NCBI GenBank assembly: GCA_026196575.1
Contig: JAPHSX010000029.1
Location: 1-64,000, forward strand
DNA length: 64,000 bases
Source of the DNA: Gammaproteobacteria bacterium
GTDB lineage: Bacteria; Pseudomonadota; Gammaproteobacteria; Thiohalomonadales; Thiohalomonadaceae
Reading direction: 5' to 3'
Part shown: piece by piece, positions 2,466 through 59,498 of the stretch
Numbering within the stretch: position 1 is the stretch's first letter
Layout of the letters: each line of letters opens with the position of its first letter
The notes under the pieces: generated by a model
Told to the model about the DNA's origin: nothing
The model's database searches: none
What the model saw: the letters and a program-made list of their open reading frames with translations, nothing else
Made by a program: the position numbers and the translations under genes

Positions 2466-3371
2466 CTATGAATCCACTACGGAATTGCCGGTCACTGCCA
2501 CCACCTCGCGGCCCAGCCGGGCGAAGGTCTCGGCACGATAACTCCCCTTGCGGTAGAGCATGCCGATGCGCCGGCTGGGGGCCGGTGGCGCAAACGGCAG
2601 ATAGTGCACCGCATCGTCGGCGCGAGGGTGGCGCGGCACCGCCAGTTGCGGCATCAGGGTCACCCCCATCCCCTCACCCACCATGTGGCGCAGGGTCTCC
2701 AGACTGGTGGCGTGAAAGGCGCCATACTCGCTGGCGCCGGCGCCAAGACAGACATCGAGGGCGTGTTCGCGCAGACAGTGTCCCTCCTCCAGCAGCATCA
2801 CCTCGCGCCCTTTCAGCTCGGCGATCTGCACCTGCCCCTGCCGCGCCAGGGGATCGCCCCGCGGTACCGCCAGCTGAAACGGCTCGCGAAACAGCGCCAC
2901 CTCGACAAAGTCGTGACGCGGCACCGGCAGTGCCAGCAGCAGCAGGTCCAGCTCGGCGTTGCGCAGCCGCTCCATCAGCACATGGGTCTGCTGTTCGTGC
3001 AGCCAGAGCTTGAGTTGCGGATAGGCCGCCTGCAGGCGCGGCATGATCAGCGGCAGCAGGTAGGGGGCGACGGTGGGGATGAGCCCCAGCTGCAGCGCAC
3101 CGGCCATCGGGTCGTGAAAGCCCTCGGCGATCCCCTTGATCTCGCGCGCCTCGGCCAGCACACGGCGCGCCTGTGCCGCCACCGCCCGTCCCGCCCCGGT
3201 CATCGCTACCTGTCGGCTGCTGCGCTCCACCAGCACCACCCCCAGCTCCTCCTCCAGCTTCTTCAGCTGGCCACTGAGGGTGGGTTGACTGACAAAACAG
3301 CGTCCTGCCGCGCGGGCGAAGTGCCCCTCCTCGTCGAGCGCCACCAGGTACTCCAGATCCCGCAATTTCAT
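2466..3371 (-). CDS. oxyR: LysR-family hydrogen peroxide-responsive regulator OxyR
   Basis: MKLRDLEYLVALDEEGHFARAAGRCFVSQPTLSGQLKKLEEELGVVLVER; LLEEGHCLREHALDVC redox Cys region; divergent from a peroxiredoxin gene. Confidence 0.92.
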   Translation of the reverse strand: MKLRDLEYLVALDEEGHFARAAGRCFVSQPTLSGQLKKLEEELGVVLVERSSRQVAMTGAGRAVAAQARRVLAEAREIKGIAEGFHDPMAGALQLGLIPTVAPYLLPLIMPRLQAAYPQLKLWLHEQQTHVLMERLRNAELDLLLLALPVPRHDFVEVALFREPFQLAVPRGDPLARQGQVQIAELKGREVMLLEEGHCLREHALDVCLGAGASEYGAFHATSLETLRHMVGEGMGVTLMPQLAVPRHPRADDAVHYLPFAPPAPSRRIGMLYRKGSYRAETFARLGREVVAVTGNSVVDS

Positions 3372-3394
3372 CCGCCACCGCCCTGCCTATAATG

Positions 3395-3431
3395 ATAGGT
3401 ATTTTCTATCAAAGTAATCGAAACAAACAAT
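3395..3431. promoter_or_regulatory. Predicted OxyR operator
   Basis: ATAG-N7-CTAT-N7-ATCG-N7-CAAT in the oxyR/peroxiredoxin divergent intergenic region; spacing equals the OxyR ATAG-N7-CTAT-N7-ATAG-N7-CTAT consensus. Confidence 0.75.
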
Positions 3432-3512
3432 TTTATCTATATTAAAAATCTTGCCATACTGTACGGGAATTCAAAACAGGGCAATGCCCTACACCAGCAA
3501 AGGAGCGAAATC

Positions 3513-4241
3513 ATGTTAGAGAACCGCGAAGGACAAAAGGTGCCGAGCGTCACCTTCAAGACCCGCCAGAACAACGCCTGGGTCGCTGTCACCACCGATG
3601 AGCTGTTCAAGGGCAAGACCGTGGCGGTCTTCTCACTGCCCGGCGCCTTCACCCCCACCTGCTCCTCTACCCACCTGCCGCGCTACAACGAGCTGGCCGG
3701 TGTGCTGAAGGAGAACGGGGTCGACTCCATTGTCTGCATCTCGGTCAACGATGCCTTTGTGATGAACGCCTGGGCCAAGGATCAGGAGGCGACCAACGTC
3801 ACCCTTATCCCCGATGGCAACGGCGAGTTCACCGCCGGCATGGGGATGCTGGTCGACAAATCGGCCATCGGCTTTGGCAAGCGCTCCTGGCGCTACTCGA
3901 TGCTGGTCAAGGATGGGGTGGTGGAGAAGCAGTTTATCGAGCCGGAGATCGAGGGTGATCCCTTCGAGGTCTCCGACGCCGACACCATGCTGCGCTACAT
4001 CAACCCTGAGGCGAAGGCCCCGGCCTCGGTGACCCTCATCACCAAGCCTGGCTGTCCCTACTGCGCCAAGGCCAAGTTGCTGCTGGAGAGCAAGAAGATG
4101 CCGTTCGAGGAGATCGTCCTCGGCCGTGACGCCACCCTGCGCTCACTGCGTGCCATCACCGGCAGTGAGATGGTGCCGCAGGTCTTTATCAACGGTGAGC
4201 ACATCGGCGGCTCCGATGAGCTGGCGAAGCGCCTGGGCTAA
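3513..4241 (+). CDS. Hybrid peroxiredoxin-glutaredoxin (Prx5-Grx fusion)
   Basis: Prx5-like [23 protein letters not shown] plus C-terminal glutaredoxin [20 protein letters not shown]...[18 protein letters not shown]. Confidence 0.96.
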
Positions 4242-4313: not shown

Positions 4314-5801
4314 TTAGCGCACCAGCGCGTTGAGCCATGCCTCGGCGGCGACGCGGCTGGTGTCGAGCACGAGAACCGGATAGAGGCCGCCAGCCAGGAT
4401 AATCACGGCGAAGAGGGTGAGCAGCCACAGCTCGCGGCGAAGCAGGTCGGGGGCGGTGGCCACCACGCGGTGGCTGAGCGGGCCATAGAAGGCGCGCCGG
4501 TAGTAGGCCAGCAGGTAGCCGGCCCCCAACACCACGCCGAACAGGGCGGCGAGTCCTGCGCCGGTGTGGCTCTTGAGGGCGCTGAAGATGAGGAGCAGCT
4601 CGGCGGGGAAGCCGTTGGTGCCGGGGATCCCCATGCTGGCCAGGCCGAAGAGAAAGAAGAGGGCGGCCAGCAGTGGCATGGTGTTGGCGACACCGCCAAG
4701 CTGAAGCATCTCGGTGGAGCCGAGGCGCTGGTGCAGCATCCCGGCGATAAGCATCATGCCACCGCTGATCACGGTAAAGTTGAGAAGCTGAAAGAGCGCC
4801 CCCTGCACCCCCTCGATGCTGAAGGCGGCCAGCCCCAGCAGCACCAGCCCGACGTGACTGATGCTGGAGAAGGCGAGCATGCCACGCAGATTGCTCTGCG
4901 CCAGTGCCAGCAGCGCGCCATAGAGGATGCCGAACACCCCCATCCCGGCCAGCAGCCAGTGGTACTCCTGTGCCGCCTGCGGCGCCAGCGGCACGGCAAA
5001 GCGCAACAGGCCGTAGGCGCCCAGCTTGAGTCCCAGAAGAATGGCGGAGAGGGCAATCGGCCCCTCGGACACCACGGTCGGTAGCCAGGTGTGCAGCGGA
5101 AAGATGGCGGTCTTTACCGCGAAACCGAGCAGCAACAGCAAAAAGACGGTGCCTTGCAGCTCGACGGAGAGCGTGCCGCTGAGCAGCGCGGGGTAGTCAA
5201 ACTGGCTCGTCGCCTCGCCGTGCCCCAGCGCCAGCAGCACAAAACCGAAGAGCAGCGGCACCCCGCCGACGAACATGTGCAGGGTATAGCTGGTGGCGGC
5301 AAAGCGGCGTTGCGGGCCAATCCCCCAGAGGCTGATGAGAAAGTAGGCGGGGATGAGCGACAACTCCCAGAAGAGGAAGAAGAGCATGGTGTCGAGGGCG
5401 GTGAAGATTCCCAGCGTGGTCGTCAGCAACAGTAGCAGCAGGGTGTAGTAGAGCTGCGGCATGGTGCGCACGCTGTTCCAGGAGAGGAGGATCGCACCGA
5501 GAAAGAGCAGCAGCGTCAGCGGCAGGAAGAGCAGCGAGATCCCGTCCACCCCCAGCAGATAGTGAATGTGCAGTGTCGGGATCCACTGTGCCCGCTCGAC
5601 AAACTGAAAGCCGCCAAGGGTGTTGTCAAAACCGAGCAGCAGGGTGCCGGCCAGCAGCAGCTCCAGCAGCACTGCCCATAGCGCCACCCAGCGCGCCCAT
5701 GCGGCATCGGCCGCCCAGATCAGCAGCGCCGCCAGCGGCAGCCCCAGTAGCATCAGGCTGAGCAGGGGGAGCTCCCCGGCCGAGGTGAGCGGCTCCAGCA
5801 C
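4314..5801 (-). CDS. NuoM-like complex I/Mrp-type antiporter subunit of the DAB operon
   Basis: 495 aa, multi-TM; LFFLFWELSLIPAYFLISLWG (TM5 Glu) and AVKTAIFPLHTWLP (TM7 Lys) motifs. Confidence 0.9.
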   Translation of the reverse strand: MLEPLTSAGELPLLSLMLLGLPLAALLIWAADAAWARWVALWAVLLELLLAGTLLLGFDNTLGGFQFVERAQWIPTLHIHYLLGVDGISLLFLPLTLLLFLGAILLSWNSVRTMPQLYYTLLLLLLTTTLGIFTALDTMLFFLFWELSLIPAYFLISLWGIGPQRRFAATSYTLHMFVGGVPLLFGFVLLALGHGEATSQFDYPALLSGTLSVELQGTVFLLLLLGFAVKTAIFPLHTWLPTVVSEGPIALSAILLGLKLGAYGLLRFAVPLAPQAAQEYHWLLAGMGVFGILYGALLALAQSNLRGMLAFSSISHVGLVLLGLAAFSIEGVQGALFQLLNFTVISGGMMLIAGMLHQRLGSTEMLQLGGVANTMPLLAALFFLFGLASMGIPGTNGFPAELLLIFSALKSHTGAGLAALFGVVLGAGYLLAYYRRAFYGPLSHRVVATAPDLLRRELWLLTLFAVIILAGGLYPVLVLDTSRVAAEAWLNALVR

Positions 5802-5802
5802 G

Positions 5803-7329
5803 TTATAACCCCTCCAACGAATCGGACCCCTGGGCGTAGAGTTCGCCCAGCGGCCGTAGCGAGTGATCCACCAGCTCCAGCCACGGCTCGGAGTGGAAAC
5901 CGGCGCTCAGTAGGCAACCGAGCACGATGAGCGACAACAGAATTTCGGCACGGTTGACCGGCTCCAGTTCGCGCAGCCCCTCCGGGCGCGGGCCGAGGAA
6001 GGCACGCTGGAATGCCCACAGCAGAAAGCCGGCGGCGACCACGTTGCCTAGCGCCGCGGCGATAGTGACCAGCGCGCCGTAGCGGTGCATCGCCGCCTCA
6101 AGGAGTAAATGGGCGGCGTCAAAACCCGGGGTGCCGGGCATGCCGACAATGGAGAGGCCGGCAAGAAAGAAGGTGATACCAATGAGCGGGATCGCCTCGA
6201 ACAGGCCGCCCAGCTGCCCCAGCAGCGGGGTGCGGGTACGGCGAAACACCATGCCGGTCATGAACAGCAGCCCAGCGGCGGCGAGGCCGAAATTGACCGA
6301 GAGCAGCATCGTCCCCTGAAAGGCGGCGTGGCTCAGGCTGAAGAGGCCGATAATGAGAATGCCCGAGTGGCTGATCACGGCAAAGGCGAGCAGGCGGCGC
6401 AGATTGACCTGGGTCAGCGCCAGCAGTGCCGCGTAGAAGACCCCGGCCACGGCGAAGGCGACCACATAGCCGTGCCACTGCAGCACCCCCTCGGGCAGCA
6501 GCGGCAGGACGAAGCGCACCATGCCGTAGATCCCACTCTTCAGGCCGATGAGAAAGACCGGTGCCACTGCCACCGAGCCGTGCTCGGCCACCTTCGGTAA
6601 CCAACCGTGCAGCGGGAAGAGCGGGATGCGCACCGCCAGCCCGTAGAAGAGCAGAAAGAAGATCACCGACTGCCAGCCCGAGGCCACCGGCTGGCGCAAC
6701 AGCTCCTGCAACTCGAAGCTCCAGCGCCCGCCGTGGGCATCGGCATACTGCCAGCCCAGCATCAGCGTCCCGGCAAAGAGCAGCAGCAGGCCGCTGCCCA
6801 TAAACTGCAGAAAACGCGCCAGTGCCTCATCCTTGGCCGCCGAGGTGGACCAGCGGTGCAGCAGGTAGCTGACCGGCAGCAGCTGCAGCGCCGTCACCAG
6901 CACAAACCAGAGCAGATCCACCGTCACCACACTGGAGAGCAGCGCCGCTTGCACCGCGAAGACCACCGCCAGAAAGAGCCCCTGCGGCGGAAAGGGGCGC
7001 ACCTGGCCATAGATCACCACCAGCAGTGTCAGCAGTGTCGTCAGCAGCACAAAGAGCACACTGACCCCGTCCACCGCCGCGTGGTAAACCAGCGGCCCGA
7101 GGAGCGCCACCCGCTCGGCGAACTGGAAGGCGCTGGTGGCGTGGTCCAGCCGCTGATAGAGCTCCACCGCCAGCAGCAGTTGCAGCAGCGCGGCGATCAG
7201 GGCAACGGGGAAGAGCGCCCGGCTGCGCCGGTGCAGCGCCAGCAGCAGCACCATCGTCGCCAGCGGCAACAGCTGTAGCGTCGCCAGCAGCGGAAAATCG
7301 CCCGTCATTGACCAGTGAATCTCCTGCAT
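5803..7329 (-). CDS. Divergent NuoM/NuoN-like membrane subunit of the DAB operon
   Basis: Start MQEIHWSMTGDF overlaps the stop of the upstream gene (the ORF-track start at 7584 is too early); AVRIPLFPLHGWLPKVAEHGSVAVAPV and multi-TM pattern; TM5 Glu absent. Confidence 0.82.
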   Translation of the reverse strand: MQEIHWSMTGDFPLLATLQLLPLATMVLLLALHRRSRALFPVALIAALLQLLLAVELYQRLDHATSAFQFAERVALLGPLVYHAAVDGVSVLFVLLTTLLTLLVVIYGQVRPFPPQGLFLAVVFAVQAALLSSVVTVDLLWFVLVTALQLLPVSYLLHRWSTSAAKDEALARFLQFMGSGLLLLFAGTLMLGWQYADAHGGRWSFELQELLRQPVASGWQSVIFFLLFYGLAVRIPLFPLHGWLPKVAEHGSVAVAPVFLIGLKSGIYGMVRFVLPLLPEGVLQWHGYVVAFAVAGVFYAALLALTQVNLRRLLAFAVISHSGILIIGLFSLSHAAFQGTMLLSVNFGLAAAGLLFMTGMVFRRTRTPLLGQLGGLFEAIPLIGITFFLAGLSIVGMPGTPGFDAAHLLLEAAMHRYGALVTIAAALGNVVAAGFLLWAFQRAFLGPRPEGLRELEPVNRAEILLSLIVLGCLLSAGFHSEPWLELVDHSLRPLGELYAQGSDSLEGL

Positions 7330-8894
7330 TAGATAATCACCACGAAGGTCGCCATTACCATCAGCCACAGGTAGCGTGGCCGTTCCAGCAGCTGTTCGAG
7401 CAGCTGCGCCTGCCGGCCGACACGGCCGATCATCCCCTGCAACCCCTCGCCGCCAAGCCGCAGGATGAGGTTCTCCTCCAGCCACGCCAGGCGCGAGGCG
7501 AGCCACTCCATGCCGTGCCCGGCCACGCCGTGACCCGTGCCGATCCCGCCCGTGCCGCCGCCACCATGCTGCCGCCGCTCCCACTCATTGAGCGAGGAGA
7601 CGGTATCGGCGCTCTCCATGCGGCCGATCAGCCGGTTCACCACCCGGGTATCGAAACGCTCCACCTCCTCGGCGAGTTGCAGGGTGGGGCGTACCAGCAG
7701 GCCGTCGCTCAGGTTTTCCAGCCAGAAACGCTCCCGCGCCGCGTGATAGATCCCACGGCGACGGCGTAACCATTCGGGGAGCGGGCGCGGCGGCTGGCTG
7801 ACCTGCTGCAGTATCGACGGCGCGCCGAGAAACTGCAGGGCACGCCAACTGGCGTGGGCCAGCAGATGCCAGCTTGCCAGCTCATACCAGCCGAGGCCGC
7901 AGGCGATGAACATCAGCCCCACCTGGGCGGTGGTGGCGAACATCAGCGCCGACTTTATATCGCTCTGCACCTGCGCGCCGAGCAGGCCGTAGAGTGCTGA
8001 GAGTACTCCCAGCAGTACCAGCAGGGCCGAGAGGGCCGGCACCTGCATGAAGAGCGGTTCCAGGCGGATTAACAGATAGACCCCGGCGTGCACCATCAGC
8101 GAGCCGTAAAAGATCGCCGAGGAGGGGGTCGGCCCCTCCAGCGCGCGGGCGATCCAGGGGGCGAATGGCAGCTGTGCCGACTTGGCCAGCGCGGCGACAA
8201 GAAAACCGCCCGCCAGCAGCCCCGCCGCCAGGCTCTCCAGCCCGCTGGCGCCACCGAGCAGGGCGGGCCACTCGGCGCTGCCGAACCAGTAAAAGGCGAG
8301 AAACAGTGCTAGCAGAAAACCGGCATCGCCGACACGGTTGGTGACAAAGGCGCGGGTGGCGTTGAGCGCGGCGGCGGGGCGCTCAAAGGAGTAGGCGATC
8401 AGCAGATAGGAGCTGACCCCCGCCAGCTCCCAGCCGACGAACATCAGCCACGCGCTGCCGGCGCAGACGATGAGCAGCATCGCCGTGTTAAACAGCAACA
8501 TCACCAGGAAAAAGCGCTGAAAACCGGCCTCGCGGTGCAGGTAGTTGACCGAGAAGCGCAGCGTGAGGAAGGCGATGAGCGCCACCAGCGTGCCCATTGC
8601 CAGCCCCAGGGGGTCGAGGGTGAAGCTGAGCAACAGTCGATAGTCGCCCACCACCAGCCACTCCCCCAGCACCACCTGCCCCGGGGTGGCGCCCGCCAGC
8701 AGCGCCTGCAGATCGAGCCCCAGCAGCCCCAGCAGCGACAGCCCCGAGGCAGAGAGGGCGAGGCGGCTGGTGCCCCGCTCCCCCGCCTCGCCGTGATTGC
8801 CGCCAAGGAGATACCCGACGCCAATGGCCAAGGCGGCCAGCAGCGGCAATACCACTGCCAGCACGACCACCGGCGCGATCCACTCAGCGCCCAT
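7329..8894 (-). CDS. dabB: DabB: NuoL-like proton-conducting subunit of the DAB inorganic-carbon transporter
   Basis: LMFVGWELAGVSSYLLIAYSFERPAAALNATRAFVTNRVGDAGFLLAL and ALAKSAQLPFAPWIARALEGPTPSSAIFYGSLMVHAGVYLLIR; overlaps dabA by 11 bp. Confidence 0.9.
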   Translation of the reverse strand: MGAEWIAPVVVLAVVLPLLAALAIGVGYLLGGNHGEAGERGTSRLALSASGLSLLGLLGLDLQALLAGATPGQVVLGEWLVVGDYRLLLSFTLDPLGLAMGTLVALIAFLTLRFSVNYLHREAGFQRFFLVMLLFNTAMLLIVCAGSAWLMFVGWELAGVSSYLLIAYSFERPAAALNATRAFVTNRVGDAGFLLALFLAFYWFGSAEWPALLGGASGLESLAAGLLAGGFLVAALAKSAQLPFAPWIARALEGPTPSSAIFYGSLMVHAGVYLLIRLEPLFMQVPALSALLVLLGVLSALYGLLGAQVQSDIKSALMFATTAQVGLMFIACGLGWYELASWHLLAHASWRALQFLGAPSILQQVSQPPRPLPEWLRRRRGIYHAARERFWLENLSDGLLVRPTLQLAEEVERFDTRVVNRLIGRMESADTVSSLNEWERRQHGGGGTGGIGTGHGVAGHGMEWLASRLAWLEENLILRLGGEGLQGMIGRVGRQAQLLEQLLERPRYLWLMVMATFVVII

Positions 8895-11800
8895 GACACA
8901 CCTCCGGCTGGTCGATCAGGCTCACCGCCAGCGGCTCGCGCCGTCCGCTGTACCAGTCGGTCGAGCAGCTCACCTGCGCCAGCGCCTGCCGCTCCCCCTC
9001 CCAGCGCCGCCAGCCGCTGGCGGGGTTGAAGAGATGAATCGCCTCGGAGTCGGGCTCCTTGGCGGCCAGCAGCAGCCACCCCTTGCCGATCAGCTCCTGC
9101 AGCGGCGGCTGGCGCTGGTAGATTTGGGTCAAGATCCCAGTGGTGGACTCCACCACCACCAGCAGGCGCATCGCCTCGTGGATCTCGACCATCTGCCACG
9201 GCAGCCCGGTGCGCAGGTCATCGTTCGCGCCGTGCATCACCCCCAGCAGACCGGTGATGTTGTGGGTCACCTTGGAGCCGCAGCCGTAGCCGGCGTTGTT
9301 GACGGTGGAGAAGTAGTACTCCAGGTTGATCCCCGCCCCCACCGGCCCGACCGCCAGCAGCACCGACTCCAGCACCCGGCCATCCGCATCCTGGGTGGGG
9401 TCGTAGGAGATCAGGAAGGGGCGGCGGTCGAAAAAGGCGCCACGGGTAACCGCGCGGCGCCCGACCACGGCGAAGGCGTTGGTGGCGTGGCCCAGCTCGG
9501 GGCGCGCCTGGCTGAAGTCGCGGGAGCGGCCGACGCTGTGGCGCCACGCCTGCTCGGGGGTGAGCCGCGCCGTATCGGGGGCCGAGGCGAAGCGGCGCGC
9601 CCGTTCGTGGGCCGAGAGGCGGGCGGCGCTATCGAGCACCTCGCGCAGCGCGGCAAACGGCTCGTGCAGTCCCTCGGGGACAAGGTCAGGGTCGTACCAC
9701 TCAATCGACTCATCACAGGTGTTGTGCTCCGCCCCCACCACCCAGCTATCCTCCGGCAGCAGTAGCCCGCGCGCAGCCAGCAGGGCACGCACCGCCGGAC
9801 GGTTGGCCATCGCCGCAAAGACGCGGGCGGTAGGGCCGCCGTGGCGCCCGGAGCAGGCGCCGCAATCGTAGGCGGAGAGGTGCGGATTGTTCTGGCTGCC
9901 GGAGCCGTGGCCCATCATCACGACCAGCTGCCCCAGCCCCTGGTGCAGACCGATGCCGCGCAGAAAACCCTCCACCCGATCCGCCTGCTCGCGGTCGCTA
10001 AAACCGAGGCGCGGCCGCTCGGGTGTGGGGGCGTCGGCCTCGGCGTCGACCTCGGCGGTAACAATGACACGGGTCGGCACCGCCGGTTCAAGGTGGCGCC
10101 GCCACCGCGCCAGCCACTCGCCGCTACGTTGCGGGGCCAGCACCCGGCCCAGCAGGGTGAGCAGCGCCAGCGGGGCGCTTAGCAGTTGCAGCAGCGCCGC
10201 CTCCAGCAGGCGTTGGCGCATCTCCTGATGCAACAGGTGTTGCAGCCTCAGGCGCCGGGTGCGCCCCCGGTTGTGTTGCACCAGCCGCTCCTCCGCCCCC
10301 GCCTGCGCCACCTCGTCAATCTGGTGTGCCGGGGTGACCACCACCGGGCAGAGTGGCGTCACCTGCTCATCGTCCAGCCCGCGCCAGTTGATCGGCACGC
10401 CGAAGAAGCCAGCGGCCCCCAGGGTCTCGATCTCGGGGTTGAGCTCCTCGAGGTGGCGCCGGATCCCCTCTTCGCGATCGTCGATGCAGAAGACCACCTG
10501 CGCGGCGGGGCGTGTCTGGCGGCTGGCCCAGCGGCCGCGTCCGTGGTTGAGGGTGAGGGCGTTGTAGATCTGCTCGTGGTAGTGGCGCTCATAGGCCTGC
10601 AACCAGAGAAAGCCGCTGCTCTCGTCGTCCAGCTCCAGGGCGCTGAAGAGGGCGGCCAGCTGCCCCTCATCCAGTGCGCGCAGCTCCTCGCCACTCAGCC
10701 CCAGGTGCTGCGCCAGCAAGAAGAGGCGCCAGCCGCTGTCTGCCACCGTGTAACCGCGCCGCGTGTCGGAGGCGGGGCTCTGCTTCCAGGTCCAGATCTT
10801 GTCGGCCAACCCCTGCCACTCCTGGTACTCGTCGCCCACCGCGTAGTGCCCCAGCAGGCGCTGCGCGGCGGTGACCAGATATTCGGGCAGCTGCTGGTTG
10901 AACAGGGTGTGGCGCACATAGAGTTCGGAGCGGCGGCGGTGGAAATACCAGTGCAGCACCTCGATGCTCGCCTCGATACGCCACAGCCGGCGGCAGAGGC
11001 GCTGCGCGTAAATACGCTCCAGCACCAGCCGCACCGCCAGGTAGTCCATCATCTCCACCCGCGCCGGGGTGAGTCCCTGATAGCCGGGGTGGCGGTGGCG
11101 CCACAGGAACATGCCGGACCAGCCAGGCAGCTCCAGCGCGAGCCGCTCCAGGTAGCTGCCCCATTGTGCTTCGGGCAGGCCGAGGCGCTGCAGCTCATCG
11201 CACACCGCGTCGAGCGCCTCATCCGGCAGCAGCTCCAGCTCGTCGCGCCACTCGGGCAGGTCGTCAAACAGCCAGCCGTGATCCTCCTCCGCGCTGTCTC
11301 GCCACTGCCGGTAGAAGCCCTCACCACGCACATCGCCATGCCAGGCGGCGAGCCCCTGATCAAGGTAGGCCCCGAGCTGGCGAATCAGTGCCGGGCGCAG
11401 CTCCTCCATAATGTCATGGCCGGTCAGCGCCAGCAGCAGACCGCGCAGGGTCAGCTCCTCGCCGACGCGCCCCAGCAACCCATCGAGCAGGCGGGTGGCG
11501 GCGCGGCGCATCAGGGTGTGGCACAGCGCCTCATCACCGCCAACCTGGTGGATGGCCTCGGGACCCGCCTCGCTCGCCGCCGCCCCCTGCACATCGAGCA
11601 GGGTGGCCGCCCCCTCGGCGCCAAGGTCGGTCAGCTCCTCCGGATGGAGCAGCTGGTGCTGCAGCCCCAGCCGCTGCAGCGCCGCCTGCCACAACTCGGC
11701 TACCGCCTGCGGCTCGGCCCGGCGACTGCGGTCGAGGATGCGTTTACGGCTGGCGTAGGCAACCCCGTCACGGAAGCGGCCCAATGCCTGCTGCTCCTCC

Positions 11801-12204
11801 ATCTGCCAGTTGAGCTGGCACTGGGTCAGCGCCTCGATCGGCTGCACCATCGCCGCCAGCACCACCTCGGCCTGGGTGAGTTGTAACCCCGCCGCCTCAA
11901 TCAGCGGGGTCTGATGATCAAAGCGCCCGTCCGCCGCCAGCACCGCCAGCAGATCGGCGTGGCTGATCCGCCCCTGCCGATAGTAGGCGCGGAACGCCTC
12001 GCCACTCTGGTAACCGTAGGCCCCGGTCACCTTGCGCGCCGCCGCCAGCGCCTCGGGAAAGTCGAGGTGCTGAAAGCCGTGCAGGGTGTTGTGGTGGATG
12101 AAGTCGCGGATCGGTGCCTGACCCGGCAGCAGGTGTTCCAGATGATCCACTGTCTGGCGCAGCGCCTCGCGGATGGTGCCGGGGATCGGGTGATCGTCGC
12201 TCAT
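8884..12204 (-). CDS. dabA: DabA (DUF2309/UPF0753) inorganic-carbon transporter subunit
   Basis: 1106 aa; VVFCIDDREEGIRRHLEE (Cys-x-Asp), MMGHGSGSQNNPHLSAYDCGACSGRHG (His and Cys): the beta-CA-like Zn/Asp ligand set known for DabA. Confidence 0.95.
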   Translation of the reverse strand: MSDDHPIPGTIREALRQTVDHLEHLLPGQAPIRDFIHHNTLHGFQHLDFPEALAAARKVTGAYGYQSGEAFRAYYRQGRISHADLLAVLAADGRFDHQTPLIEAAGLQLTQAEVVLAAMVQPIEALTQCQLNWQMEEQQALGRFRDGVAYASRKRILDRSRRAEPQAVAELWQAALQRLGLQHQLLHPEELTDLGAEGAATLLDVQGAAASEAGPEAIHQVGGDEALCHTLMRRAATRLLDGLLGRVGEELTLRGLLLALTGHDIMEELRPALIRQLGAYLDQGLAAWHGDVRGEGFYRQWRDSAEEDHGWLFDDLPEWRDELELLPDEALDAVCDELQRLGLPEAQWGSYLERLALELPGWSGMFLWRHRHPGYQGLTPARVEMMDYLAVRLVLERIYAQRLCRRLWRIEASIEVLHWYFHRRRSELYVRHTLFNQQLPEYLVTAAQRLLGHYAVGDEYQEWQGLADKIWTWKQSPASDTRRGYTVADSGWRLFLLAQHLGLSGEELRALDEGQLAALFSALELDDESSGFLWLQAYERHYHEQIYNALTLNHGRGRWASRQTRPAAQVVFCIDDREEGIRRHLEELNPEIETLGAAGFFGVPINWRGLDDEQVTPLCPVVVTPAHQIDEVAQAGAEERLVQHNRGRTRRLRLQHLLHQEMRQRLLEAALLQLLSAPLALLTLLGRVLAPQRSGEWLARWRRHLEPAVPTRVIVTAEVDAEADAPTPERPRLGFSDREQADRVEGFLRGIGLHQGLGQLVVMMGHGSGSQNNPHLSAYDCGACSGRHGGPTARVFAAMANRPAVRALLAARGLLLPEDSWVVGAEHNTCDESIEWYDPDLVPEGLHEPFAALREVLDSAARLSAHERARRFASAPDTARLTPEQAWRHSVGRSRDFSQARPELGHATNAFAVVGRRAVTRGAFFDRRPFLISYDPTQDADGRVLESVLLAVGPVGAGINLEYYFSTVNNAGYGCGSKVTHNITGLLGVMHGANDDLRTGLPWQMVEIHEAMRLLVVVESTTGILTQIYQRQPPLQELIGKGWLLLAAKEPDSEAIHLFNPASGWRRWEGERQALAQVSCSTDWYSGRREPLAVSLIDQPEVCHGR

Positions 12205-13679
12205 CGTATGGATTCTCCCATGCCGAGAAAGAGGGCACCCAGCTGTGCCACCGAGGCCCCCATCAGCTGCAGCAACGGCGCCGGCACAAAGCCGATGCCG
12301 AGAAAGCCGGCAGTCAGCGCCGAGGCGGCAAACAGCTCGCCGCGCTGCAGGTCGGCCACGCCCTGCATCGAGGGGCGCACCGGCCCGGTAAAGAGGTGGC
12401 CCACGGTGCGCACCGCGTAGGCGGCGCTAATCAGCACCCCGAGGCTGATCACCACCACCCACCAGCCCCAGCGCTCGAAGCCGCCAATAAGGACGTGCAG
12501 CTCGGCGACAAAGCCGGCGGTGCCCGGCATACCCACCGCGCCGATAAAGGCGAGGGAGGTGAAGAGGGCGAAGCGCGGGGTGATGCGCACCAGCGAGCTG
12601 TAGTCATTAATGTCGCGGCTGCCGGTGCGCTCGTAGAGCAGGCCGACCAGCAGAAACAGCGCCGCCGCCACCAAGCCATGGGCCACCATGTGCAACACCG
12701 CACCGGTCAGGCCGATGGTGGAGAGGGTGGCGATACCGAGCAGCACCACCCCCATGTGGCTGACCGAGGAGTAGGCGATCATCCGTTTCAGATCACTCTG
12801 GCGCCACGCCAGCAGGCCGCCATAGAGGATCGCCGTCAGCGCCAGCACCAGCAGCACCCCCTGCATCATCTGCGCCGCCTGCGGCAGCATGGCGCTGACG
12901 CGGATCAGGCCGTAGGCCCCCATCTTCAGCAGCGCCCCCGAGAGCAGGAGGGAGACCGGGGAGGGCGCCTCCACATGGGCCAGCGGCAGCCAGCCGTGCA
13001 GCGGGAAGATCGGCATCTTCACGCCGAAACCAAGCAGAAAACCGAGAAAGATCAGCAGCTGTGTCTCGGCCGAGAGCGCCTGGCCGCCGCGCAGTAGATC
13101 GGCGGCGGCAAAACTGTGGAGCCCCACCACATCGAACACCAGTAGCAGCGACAGCAGCATGAAGACCGAGCCGCCCATGGTGTAGAGCACAAAGTTGAGT
13201 GACGCCCCCTGCCCCCCCTTGCCGCCCCAACCGTTAATGAGGAAGAAGAGCGGGATCAGGGTCAGCTCCCAGAAGACATAGAACAGCAGCCAGTCCTGCG
13301 CCATGAAGACCCCCAGCATCGCCGCCTCCAGCAGCAGCAGCAGGGCGTAGTAACCCCTGGAGCGCTCCGTGATGGAGGCCGAGGCGAGGACGGCGATAAA
13401 ACTGAGCAGTGTCGCCAGCAGCACCATGGGGAAGGAGATACCGTCGATACCGAGGGCGAAATTGGTGCCCAGGCGCGGATTCCACGGCACCGTCACCGCG
13501 AACTGCATCGTCGCCAACGAGCTGTCGAAATGCCACAGCAGGACCCACGCCGGGACAAGCGTCAGCCCCGAGGCCATGATCGCCACCCGGCGCAGCAGCA
13601 CGCGATTGTCGCCCGGCAGCAGGGCGATGAGCAGCGCGCCGAGGAGCGGCGTCAGCAGCAGCAGTGTCAGGCTAGCCAT
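12201..13679 (-). CDS. NuoM-like complex I/Mrp-type subunit, first gene of the DAB operon
   Basis: 492 aa; LLFYVFWELTLIPLFFLINGWGGKGGQGASLNFVLYTMGGSVFMLL and FGVKMPIFPLHGWLPLAHVEAPSPVSLLLSGALLKMGAYGLIR; 4-bp overlap with dabA. Confidence 0.93.
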   Translation of the reverse strand: MASLTLLLLTPLLGALLIALLPGDNRVLLRRVAIMASGLTLVPAWVLLWHFDSSLATMQFAVTVPWNPRLGTNFALGIDGISFPMVLLATLLSFIAVLASASITERSRGYYALLLLLEAAMLGVFMAQDWLLFYVFWELTLIPLFFLINGWGGKGGQGASLNFVLYTMGGSVFMLLSLLLVFDVVGLHSFAAADLLRGGQALSAETQLLIFLGFLLGFGVKMPIFPLHGWLPLAHVEAPSPVSLLLSGALLKMGAYGLIRVSAMLPQAAQMMQGVLLVLALTAILYGGLLAWRQSDLKRMIAYSSVSHMGVVLLGIATLSTIGLTGAVLHMVAHGLVAAALFLLVGLLYERTGSRDINDYSSLVRITPRFALFTSLAFIGAVGMPGTAGFVAELHVLIGGFERWGWWVVVISLGVLISAAYAVRTVGHLFTGPVRPSMQGVADLQRGELFAASALTAGFLGIGFVPAPLLQLMGASVAQLGALFLGMGESIR

Positions 13680-13705
13680 TACCCCTTCCCATTACCCCTT
13701 CCCAT
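13677..13705 (-). repeat. 13-bp tandem duplication containing SD-like sequence and ATG
   Basis: CATTACCCCTTCC repeated at 13677-13689 and 13690-13702 followed by CAT; minus strand reads ATGGGAAGGGGTAATGGGAAGGGGTAATGGCT. Confidence 0.9.
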
Positions 13706-24102: not shown

Positions 24103-26232
24103 ATGTCTAGCCCTCATGACCATCGTCAAAAGGACGATAACGCGTTCGCCCCTATTGCTCTGGCCTTTCTTCTGGCCGCATCACCTCTGGCATTTTCAGC
24201 CGAATCATCATCACCCCTCGCCCTTTTATTACAGCAGGGTGCTATAGCCGATTATGGTGCCTCCCCCTGGTATACGGAGACTATCACTCTGGGAAACAGT
24301 TCAATGAAACTGGCCCTGGACTCGGGTGCCAACTTTATCTGGGCTACCTCTGACCTCTGCACCACCGATGCGTGCAACAACCATCAAAAGGTAAGTACCA
24401 CTCAAACGGGATTTAGCTGGATCGATCAGACTACCTCCGTTCGCTCTTTCGGGCCCTGGGGGTCAATGACCACCGAAACCGGCAGTGTCACTTTTAATAC
24501 CACCGGAACGACCGGCATGAGCATGGATCTGTTTGCCTCGACCAACTATAGCGGTGGCCAGTTTAAATACCTGGCTTGGGGTGGTGGCATCGGTTTCCCC
24601 TCAACCAGTAGCGGACTGGAGCAGGGCAGCAGTTTCTATTTTGCCAACCTCTATCACAGCGGCGCCATTAGCCAGCCCAGCTTCTCTCTGGTGACAGAGC
24701 CGACCACCGGCTATGGTTTTATGCTGCTGGGTGGTGATGACCCCGCCCTCTATAAACCAGAAACCAGGATTGAGCTTAAACCCAACACCACCGGTCAGAT
24801 CGACTACATATGGGGCACCGATCTCTACTCTTTTGATGTGGGCAGTCAAAGCATTCCAGCGCTGACCAATGCCCGTTTCTACCTTGATAGCGGCTCGTCA
24901 CTATTCAAGGGCGATGAGATCTATATCACCCCCATTCTGCAACAACTGGTCGCTCTTACAGATAAGAGCGGCAAGCTGATCTTTGATAAGGTCTATGACG
25001 CCGATAAGAAGTGGGTAAGCCTTGTCTATGCCAATGGTCAGGGGCCGGGTCACTATACCGGCATGCTCCCCGATATCACCCTGACCCTTGGCCAGAGTTG
25101 TGCTGGCAGTAGTGGCCAATCTGCGCAGATTACCCTAAGCCCTGCGCAGTACTCATACCTTGTTGCGGAGGGCGACCGGGCCGGTAGCTGGGTGCCTGCT
25201 TTTAGTGTACTCAATGGCGTTGGCGGTCTGCTTGTCGGCTCTACCTTTATGGACCTGCTCTACACCAACTTTAACTACGTGGATAATGGCACGGGTACAT
25301 TAACTCAGGGGAATATGTACCTTTACCAGAAATCTACCGGTTCGAGCCCTGCGCAGATGAGCTGTGTCGCTACGCCGCACCCAATTGAGGGGACCTGGGT
25401 CAACTCATACTGCTCTCAGGTCACTCTCGCCCTGACGCCTGATAATTCCATTATTGGCACCTACACTTCGTATACCGGTTCTACCGGATCATCCAATGTG
25501 GTTGGCTGGCTTTCTGGCTCACCAGTTAATGTTAATCACCAGCAGCTTCCGGTCAATCCAGAGGGCACCCCAATTGCACTGGGGATACAGTGGCGTCTGA
25601 TTAACGACCCAGTTAGTGCTGCGGATGGTTCGTGGCACTGGGTTTCAAATTTTTCAGGGCAATTTCATCCTCAACAGATCGTCCGTGAAGGGGGACAGCA
25701 GGACTACCAGCTTAACCAGACACTGGAGGTGACCAACGGACTACTTGCCACCGCGACTGTTGCCGGACTGACCAGCAAGGTGCCACAAATGTGGCCGCAA
25801 ACGCTGACCTTTGGCAGGATCCCTCCCCCCTACTGTGAGGCCGTCACGCCACCACCGGCCATCCCCTTCAGTGGTACCGCAACGGACAATATTTCGGGTA
25901 CATGGCGCTCGGCCTCTGGCGCTATGCTGACACTGATTGCTGATATTGCTAGCGGTAACGTTTTTGGCAACTACGCCAGCGGCACTCAAACCTATGATGT
26001 GATTGGCCTTGTGGATGCCATTACCGCTACTCCAGGATCAACCCTGGTAGAGCAGGGGCTTGCACTGGCGATAAGAAATACAACGGGTGATGTGTTCTCT
26101 ATGTCTGGCGGTGTCAACCTTGCCGCAACAAACACCATGACGCTATGGGTGGATGATCTGACCGTAACCACATGGACCGACCGTTTTATGCAATCGGATT
26201 ATGACAAGACGACATGGAGTCGGGTCCAATAG
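24103..26232 (+). CDS. Secreted pepsin-like (A1) aspartic protease with two C-terminal avidin-like domains
   Basis: Signal peptide; LALDSGANFIWATSDLCTTDACNNH (first catalytic Asp plus pepsin-type C-x4-C loop), SFGPWGSMTTETGSVTF (flap), ARFYLDSGSSLFKG (second Asp), GGLLVGSTFMDLLYTNFNYVDNGTGTL; then IEGTWVNSYCSQVTL...IGTYTS...IALGIQWR...FSGQF and ISGTWRSASGAMLTL...FGNYASG avidin-like repeats. Confidence 0.85.
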   Translation: MSSPHDHRQKDDNAFAPIALAFLLAASPLAFSAESSSPLALLLQQGAIADYGASPWYTETITLGNSSMKLALDSGANFIWATSDLCTTDACNNHQKVSTTQTGFSWIDQTTSVRSFGPWGSMTTETGSVTFNTTGTTGMSMDLFASTNYSGGQFKYLAWGGGIGFPSTSSGLEQGSSFYFANLYHSGAISQPSFSLVTEPTTGYGFMLLGGDDPALYKPETRIELKPNTTGQIDYIWGTDLYSFDVGSQSIPALTNARFYLDSGSSLFKGDEIYITPILQQLVALTDKSGKLIFDKVYDADKKWVSLVYANGQGPGHYTGMLPDITLTLGQSCAGSSGQSAQITLSPAQYSYLVAEGDRAGSWVPAFSVLNGVGGLLVGSTFMDLLYTNFNYVDNGTGTLTQGNMYLYQKSTGSSPAQMSCVATPHPIEGTWVNSYCSQVTLALTPDNSIIGTYTSYTGSTGSSNVVGWLSGSPVNVNHQQLPVNPEGTPIALGIQWRLINDPVSAADGSWHWVSNFSGQFHPQQIVREGGQQDYQLNQTLEVTNGLLATATVAGLTSKVPQMWPQTLTFGRIPPPYCEAVTPPPAIPFSGTATDNISGTWRSASGAMLTLIADIASGNVFGNYASGTQTYDVIGLVDAITATPGSTLVEQGLALAIRNTTGDVFSMSGGVNLAATNTMTLWVDDLTVTTWTDRFMQSDYDKTTWSRVQ

Positions 26233-59447: not shown

Positions 59448-59498
<51 letters not shown>

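Follow-up and report, generated by a model that had tools for sequence, protein, structure and literature searches.

We analysed a stretch of 64,000 nucleotides from a Gammaproteobacteria bacterium of the Thiohalomonadaceae (GenBank assembly GCA_026196575.1, contig JAPHSX010000029.1, positions 1 to 64,000; hereafter the window), which carries five abutting genes on its minus strand at 4314-13679. They are transcribed in the order M5 (NuoM-like), DabA, DabB, M2 (divergent NuoM-like) and M1 (NuoM-like), and probably build an enlarged version of the two-protein DAB pump. We assign a probability of about 0.72 to the reading that the five products form one complex, in which CO2 hydration at DabA would be driven by cations entering through a complex-I-like arm. 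The role of a proton-handling finger glutamate, essential to the two-protein pump, appears to have passed to the extra complex-I-like membrane proteins. As read from sequence, the features behind this proposal are the operon and its order, a gene fusion, the co-retention of the genes, an intact zinc site, and the class-wide replacement of the finger Glu and of DabB helices by a Glu in transmembrane helix 5 (TM5) and additional subunits. If the proposal is right, this CO2 pump comes in two builds, having one or four antiporter-like subunits, and the long-standing question of how the count of complex-I-type subunits determines the ion-to-substrate ratio can be tested directly, free of redox chemistry. 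Nitrifiers, methanotrophs and sulfur oxidisers would then offer other proteins to test or transplant for carbon uptake, and dabA-dabB alone may fail there.

The operon and its catalytic subunit

All five open reading frames (ORFs) were recovered at the coordinates given in Table 1, which confirms the minus-strand arrangement described in an earlier note on this DNA, as well as its junction sizes: M5 and DabA overlap by 4 bp, DabA and DabB by 11 bp, and DabB and M2 by 1 bp, and a 1-bp gap separates M2 from M1. M2 starts at a coupled ATG at 7329 that overlaps the DabB stop by one base; a GTG start at 7584 proposed by the ORF finder was rejected as an upstream artefact. The scan for promoters and terminators upstream of the operon found none, and an Rfam search gave no match. 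An exact 13-bp tandem duplication (2.3 copies, 13676-13705) spans the M5 start codon and ribosome-binding region. An assembly artefact is ruled out, as the gene order recurs in many independent records.

DabA is a member of PF10070 (788 bits against a cut-off of 25), and M5, DabB, M2 and M1 all match PF00361 (136-246 bits); NCBIfam and Pfam models place these four in the NuoL/M antiporter family. The adjacent NuoL-like PF00361 partner, DabB, fits membership of the DAB family, and the assignment of the block to one operon of DAB type was borne out. Residues C573, D575, R577, H766 and C781 of the window DabA align with C351, D353, R355, H524 and C539 of DAB2 (DabA2-DabB2 of Halothiobacillus neapolitanus, PDB 9rd0), in which the zinc site serves CO2 uptake (PMC13144422). 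The Cys/Asp and His/Cys ligand motifs that the earlier note had picked out are present, and they align to experimentally tested residues. These residues are kept in 66-67 of the 67 five-gene DabA sequences compared, with C573 found in 67/67 five-gene and 52/52 two-gene sequences and H766 in every DabA tallied. The window DabA matches the DAB2 chain 9rd0_A at E=6.5e-70. Its AlphaFold2 (AF2) model (pLDDT 79.8) contains a helical hairpin at residues 638-689 and has a beta-carbonic anhydrase as its best Foldseek match (E=9.5e-4); 9rd0 was not among the Foldseek matches listed for the model. The finger hairpin of DAB2 is thus predicted in the window DabA, but L674 replaces Glu444 and no carboxylate is present; the hairpin with Glu444 is a DAB2 feature, not an established hallmark of the family.

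The zinc site bears on the direction of the reaction. The COGNAT 2017 paper (PMC5700660) proposed the reverse process, in which an exergonic DabA reaction pumps several ions out. Such export would suit the several pump-like subunits per soluble subunit, and a TM5 Glu gate like that of pumping complex I, and we nevertheless consider it very unlikely. Near neutral pH the hydration of CO2 releases only a small amount of free energy, which would not pay for the export of several ions. The zinc site moreover matches the carbonic-anhydrase-like site serving CO2 uptake in DAB2 (PMC13144422).

Residues that separate five-gene from two-gene systems

Five-gene DabA (n=67) and DabB (n=87) sequences were aligned with two-gene relatives (n=52) of the same bacterial class, and the sites that the DAB2 structure paper (PMC13144422) had probed were tallied. 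The finger position E444 is Glu in 52/52 two-gene and 0/67 five-gene DabA sequences. Asp occupies it in 22/67 of the latter (from nitrifiers, most methanotrophs, two Competibacteraceae-type genomes and one other), and the others, including the window's with L674, have no carboxylate. The DabB position of DAB2 I151 is Glu in 85/87 five-gene sequences, corresponding to the TM5 Glu of complex I, and in none of the 52 two-gene sequences. Both positions matter, since DAB2 loses its activity with E444A/Q and half of its growth yield with I151E (PMC13144422). Two further sites changed with them: H260 is His in 52/52 two-gene and Tyr in 85/87 five-gene DabB, and K347 is Lys in 52/52 and Arg in 86/87, respectively. 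By hydropathy, TM-like segments after TM11 number 0-1 in all 87 five-gene DabB sequences, with a mode of 4 (44/52) in two-gene ones. The window DabB keeps the TM1-11 region, has a polar tail and a C-terminal hydrophobic segment in place of the last ~3 helices, and covers only positions 3-225 of the 294 of PF00361. Among the DAB2 path residues it keeps S256, K310, H339 and H343, with Tyr for H260 and Arg for K347.

The five-gene class thus resembles DAB2 in its DabA family, its zinc residues and a NuoL-like DabB that keeps K310 and H343. DAB2, however, has two subunits, the essential finger Glu444, Ile151, H260 and K347 in DabB, and 15 TM helices (PMC13144422), whereas the five-gene class has no finger Glu, the TM5 Glu, Tyr and Arg at the two other sites, fewer DabB helices and three more subunits. 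The gene order also differs, being dabA-dabB in the five-gene class and dabB-dabA in the two-gene relatives compared. Judged by its catalytic subunit and partner the five-gene system is a DAB, yet it differs from DAB2 in features on which DAB2 depends.

The extra subunits differ among themselves. M5 and M1 keep the NuoM set (TM5 Glu, TM7 Lys, TM8 Lys and TM12 Glu) in every sequence shown. M2 has lost both Glu residues (TM5 and TM12), has Arg234 for the TM7 Lys, keeps the TM8 Lys264, and carries a signature of its own, GFDAxHL, at TM12. In the tree M2 is sister to M1, M5 lies nearest NuoM, and DabB groups with NuoL and the two-gene DabB. The claim of four ion-conducting modules per DabA made in the earlier note is overstated: M2 departs from the NuoM set as just described, DabB is missing its final helices as well as DAB2's H260 and K347, and only M5 and M1 are canonical, so that by their residues no more than two of these four proteins look like ordinary ion pumps. 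For M2, a specialised role in coupling or as an adaptor is more likely.

In the DabA tree, one split parts the five-gene clade (SH-aLRT 100) together with four odd relatives from the two-gene forms. Two of these relatives combine a finger Asp with the TM5 Glu: G051, with the order SulP-M5-DabA-NuoL-like followed by the contig end, and G025 (locus L117, 1-11781), with SulP-DabA-NuoN-NuoL-NuoM, which is possibly an intermediate form. Both fit the clade C neighbourhood of the COGNAT 2017 paper (PMC5700660). The other two belong to the five-gene residue class: L220, a divergent member whose NuoM-like neighbour is itself highly divergent, and L241 (genome G248), a divergent DabA-DabB pair.

Conservation, fusion and the proposed complex

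We searched 369 genomes of the same class as the window for M2, leaving the window's own genome uncounted. Strong orthologues (about 44-63% identity) occur in 17 genomes from many families. An M1-like gene adjoins M2 in all 17 except two genomes of one genus, in which M1 lies elsewhere. DabA is present in 16 of the 17 as against 83/369 overall (hypergeometric p=1.8e-10, with relatives treated as independent), and the 17th genome is 77% complete. None of the M2 genomes has a second DabA; two pieces in one of them (G094) are both ends of one gene. A scan of genome collections with the M2 alignment returned at least 80 loci. Among the matches listed, M5-DabA-DabB-M2-M1 is complete in 50/80, most others ending at contig ends; the median gaps between genes in five-gene loci are 3 to -4 bp. 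The search for five-gene synteny called for in the earlier note thus found it far beyond chance. The gene set is common to many sulfur-, ammonia- and methane-oxidising bacteria, with Thiodiazotropha, Thiohalomonas, Thiothrix, Thiobacillus, Accumulibacter, Competibacter, Methylobacter, Methylovulum, Nitrosomonas, Nitrosospira, Nitrotoga and Magnetococcales among the named hosts; many hosts are metagenome-assembled genomes.

In five Competibacteraceae-type loci (L053, L055, L168, L176 and L198) a single ORF of ~1040 aa encodes DabB and M2, with M2 joined to the DabB C-terminus. L053 and L176 are apparently the same contig in two collections and L168 and L198 are separate records; L168, L176 and L198 each have a public record under a name of their own. 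Because of this fusion, M2 is very likely a part of the DAB complex. In an AF2 model of the natural fusion both halves fold, with a NuoL match over the first ~370 residues and a NuoM match (TM-score 0.89 by target). The genes are also retained when they are dispersed. Two genomes (G068 and G199) have M5, DabA, the DabB-M2 fusion and M1 all at separate places, G074 has M5-DabB-M2-M1 together and DabA on another contig, and G330 has M5-DabA and M2-M1 on two contigs. In Thiothrix fructosivorans (L157, 467-9921) DabA-DabB is duplicated in tandem, giving the order M5-DabA-DabB-DabA-DabB-M2-M1.

These data weigh on an alternative in which DabA and DabB are an ordinary two-protein DAB, and M1, M2 and M5 a separate Mrp- or complex-I-like cation transporter sharing the operon. 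M5 and M1 are complete NuoM-like proteins, two-protein DAB2 suffices in E. coli (PMC13144422), and the L241 pair belongs to the same residue class with no NuoM gene seen next to it. However, the fusion ties M2 to DabB, and the genes are kept when dispersed. The five abutting genes leave no room for the small Mrp partners MrpB, C, E, F and G, and NuoM and NuoL models score far above Mrp models for the antiporter-like genes of the operon. The five-gene DabA-DabB pair also looks incomplete alone, because it has lost H260, K347 and finger E444, which DAB2 needs, together with the last DabB helices. We hold this alternative to be unlikely.

The host genome (2.74 Mb in 74 contigs, with one DabA) carries all of nuo L/M/N on another contig; the cell is therefore not short of complex I subunits that the extra NuoM-like genes would supply. 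Two further PF00361 genes, one in a 1070-aa frame, lie on a third contig. That M1, M2 and M5 are spare or alternative complex I subunits of the '2M' type, with DabA and DabB as mere neighbours, would agree with the TIGR01972 score of M5 (479 bits, well above the NuoM cut-off) and its position nearest NuoM in the tree. The operon contains no other nuo gene, though, and the complex I peripheral arm and NuoA/H/J/K/N gave no match among the ORFs examined in or beside it. M1, M2 and M5 form clades of their own across distant taxa and travel with DabA. We rejected this reading, the least probable that we weighed, on account of the complete, separate nuo L/M/N. The view that the extra antiporter-like subunits go with DabA and DabB and not with complex I was upheld by that set together with the fusion, the co-retention and the co-occurrence.

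In the single complex that we favour, DabA would be a cytoplasmic zinc catalyst resembling beta-carbonic anhydrase that turns CO2 into bicarbonate, and the shortened DabB, the re-tooled M2 and the canonical M1 and M5 would make up a complex-I-like membrane arm, cation flow through which would drive CO2 hydration. M1 and M5 would physically assemble with DabA and DabB and carry the ions, and DabB and M2 would couple these to DabA. The ion would be H+ entering down its gradient, and so possibly more than one per CO2. That five-gene DABs are a mechanistically distinct class of vectorial carbonic anhydrase is a more tentative proposal, to which we give slightly less than even odds. In it the ion path would run through the row of M5 and M1, with M2 as a fixed adaptor to DabB, and would no longer be completed inside DabB by the finger Glu; the ion/CO2 ratio would be higher and the gate of complex I type.

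Several points weigh against the single complex. The strongest against a strict need for the extra subunits is L241, near which no NuoM-like gene was seen. A third of the five-gene DabA sequences still have a finger Asp. The residue switch is a single evolutionary event, given the single split in the DabA tree, so that its near-perfect counts, like the Fisher p-values computed for them, are not independent and offer no replicated support; likewise the co-occurrence p=1.8e-10 takes related sequences as independent and ignores phylogeny. The fusion links DabB and M2 only, M1 and M5 being tied by retention and order alone, and the AF2 model of the fusion gives no confident placement of DabB against M2 (pTM 0.58, linker pLDDT below 50). 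In G330, DabB was not located in the stretches examined. Our literature search found no biochemical data on any five-gene member.

Related systems and gene neighbourhood

In cyanobacterial NDH-1MS, CO2 hydration is tied to the complex-I-like antiporter subunits NdhD/NdhF. The catalytic subunit there is CupA and the system is redox driven, whereas the five-gene operon encodes no redox subunit and its catalytic subunit is of PF10070; membership of NDH-1MS/CupA fails, the window DabB scoring 151 bits with the NdhF3 model against a cut-off of 589. For MpsAB of Staphylococcus aureus we know of no extra NuoM-like subunits. This two-gene system, related to Tcr_0853/0854, can replace carbonic anhydrase (PMC6689103) and has been argued to be Na+-linked (PMC13144422).

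Whether the arrangement had already been characterised has a divided answer. The main text of the COGNAT 2017 paper (PMC5700660) describes 'clade C' operons of ybcC/COG3002, a gene of then unknown function, with SulP (COG0659) and NuoM (COG1008), and suggests that subunit number sets ion number. The five-gene class resembles these operons in having DabA upstream of a NuoL homologue, extra NuoM-like genes and, in several loci, SulP beside M5. The NuoM/ybcC neighbourhood and the multi-ion idea were thus already in print in 2017; the multi-ion reading of the earlier note, which we regard as plausible, was in part anticipated there. That main text has no description of the five-gene core, of the M2 family, of the DabB-M2 fusion or of the residue switch, nor were these found in the literature searched, where only the COGNAT and DAB2 papers were directly relevant.

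In several five-gene loci a SulP-family permease gene precedes M5 by 50-170 bp in the same orientation, and a CsoSCA-like carbonic anhydrase, just above the catalytic-domain cut-off, lies beside the cluster in 13 loci, usually adjoining M1. Both neighbours fit a role in inorganic carbon. An example of the CsoSCA-catalytic-domain-like protein is encoded at L046 2806-3903; carboxysome genes were not seen with it. In the window itself, neither protein was among the operon neighbours examined; a CsoSCA_cat search of the host gave no match, but its controls gave none either. The host encodes a RubisCO large subunit, split over two contig ends. No PF00484 beta-carbonic anhydrase was detected in its genome, in a search whose controls matched.

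Table 1. Features of the five-gene operon in the window (aa, amino acids).
Feature	Position	Strand	Basis
M5, NuoM-like, 492 aa, first gene of the operon	12201..13679	-	PF00361 246 bits, TIGR01972 479 bits, residue alignment, tree
DabA, zinc beta-carbonic-anhydrase-like, long form, 1106 aa	8884..12204	-	PF10070 788 bits
DabA C573 codon (DAB2 zinc ligand C351), then D575, R577	10486..10488	-	alignment
DabA finger hairpin, residues 638-689	10138..10293	-	two helices in AF2 model
DabA H766 codon (DAB2 zinc ligand H524)	9907..9909	-	alignment
DabA C781 codon (DAB2 C539)	9862-9864	-	alignment
DabB, NuoL-like, 521 aa	7329..8894	-	PF00361 and PF00662
DabB E156 codon, complex I TM5 Glu (Ile151 in DAB2)	8427..8429	-	alignment
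DabB polar tail in place of last ~3 helices	about 7395-7796	-	hydropathy
M2, divergent NuoM-like, 508 aa	5803..7329	-	PF00361, own tree clade
M1, NuoM-like, 495 aa, last gene, GTG start, GGAGG nearby	4314..5801	-	PF00361 200 bits, residue alignment, tree

Beyond the operon, an OxyR-like regulator gene stands divergent to a peroxiredoxin-glutaredoxin fusion gene (2466-4241), and the end of this fusion gene is convergent with that of the operon. Elsewhere in the window, a protein with a eukaryotic-type pepsin-like domain (PF00026) is encoded at 24103-26232, where the local GC content is 0.50-0.54 as against about 0.64, and the hexamer CGTTGC is repeated in 8.5 copies with zero mismatches at 59448-59498.

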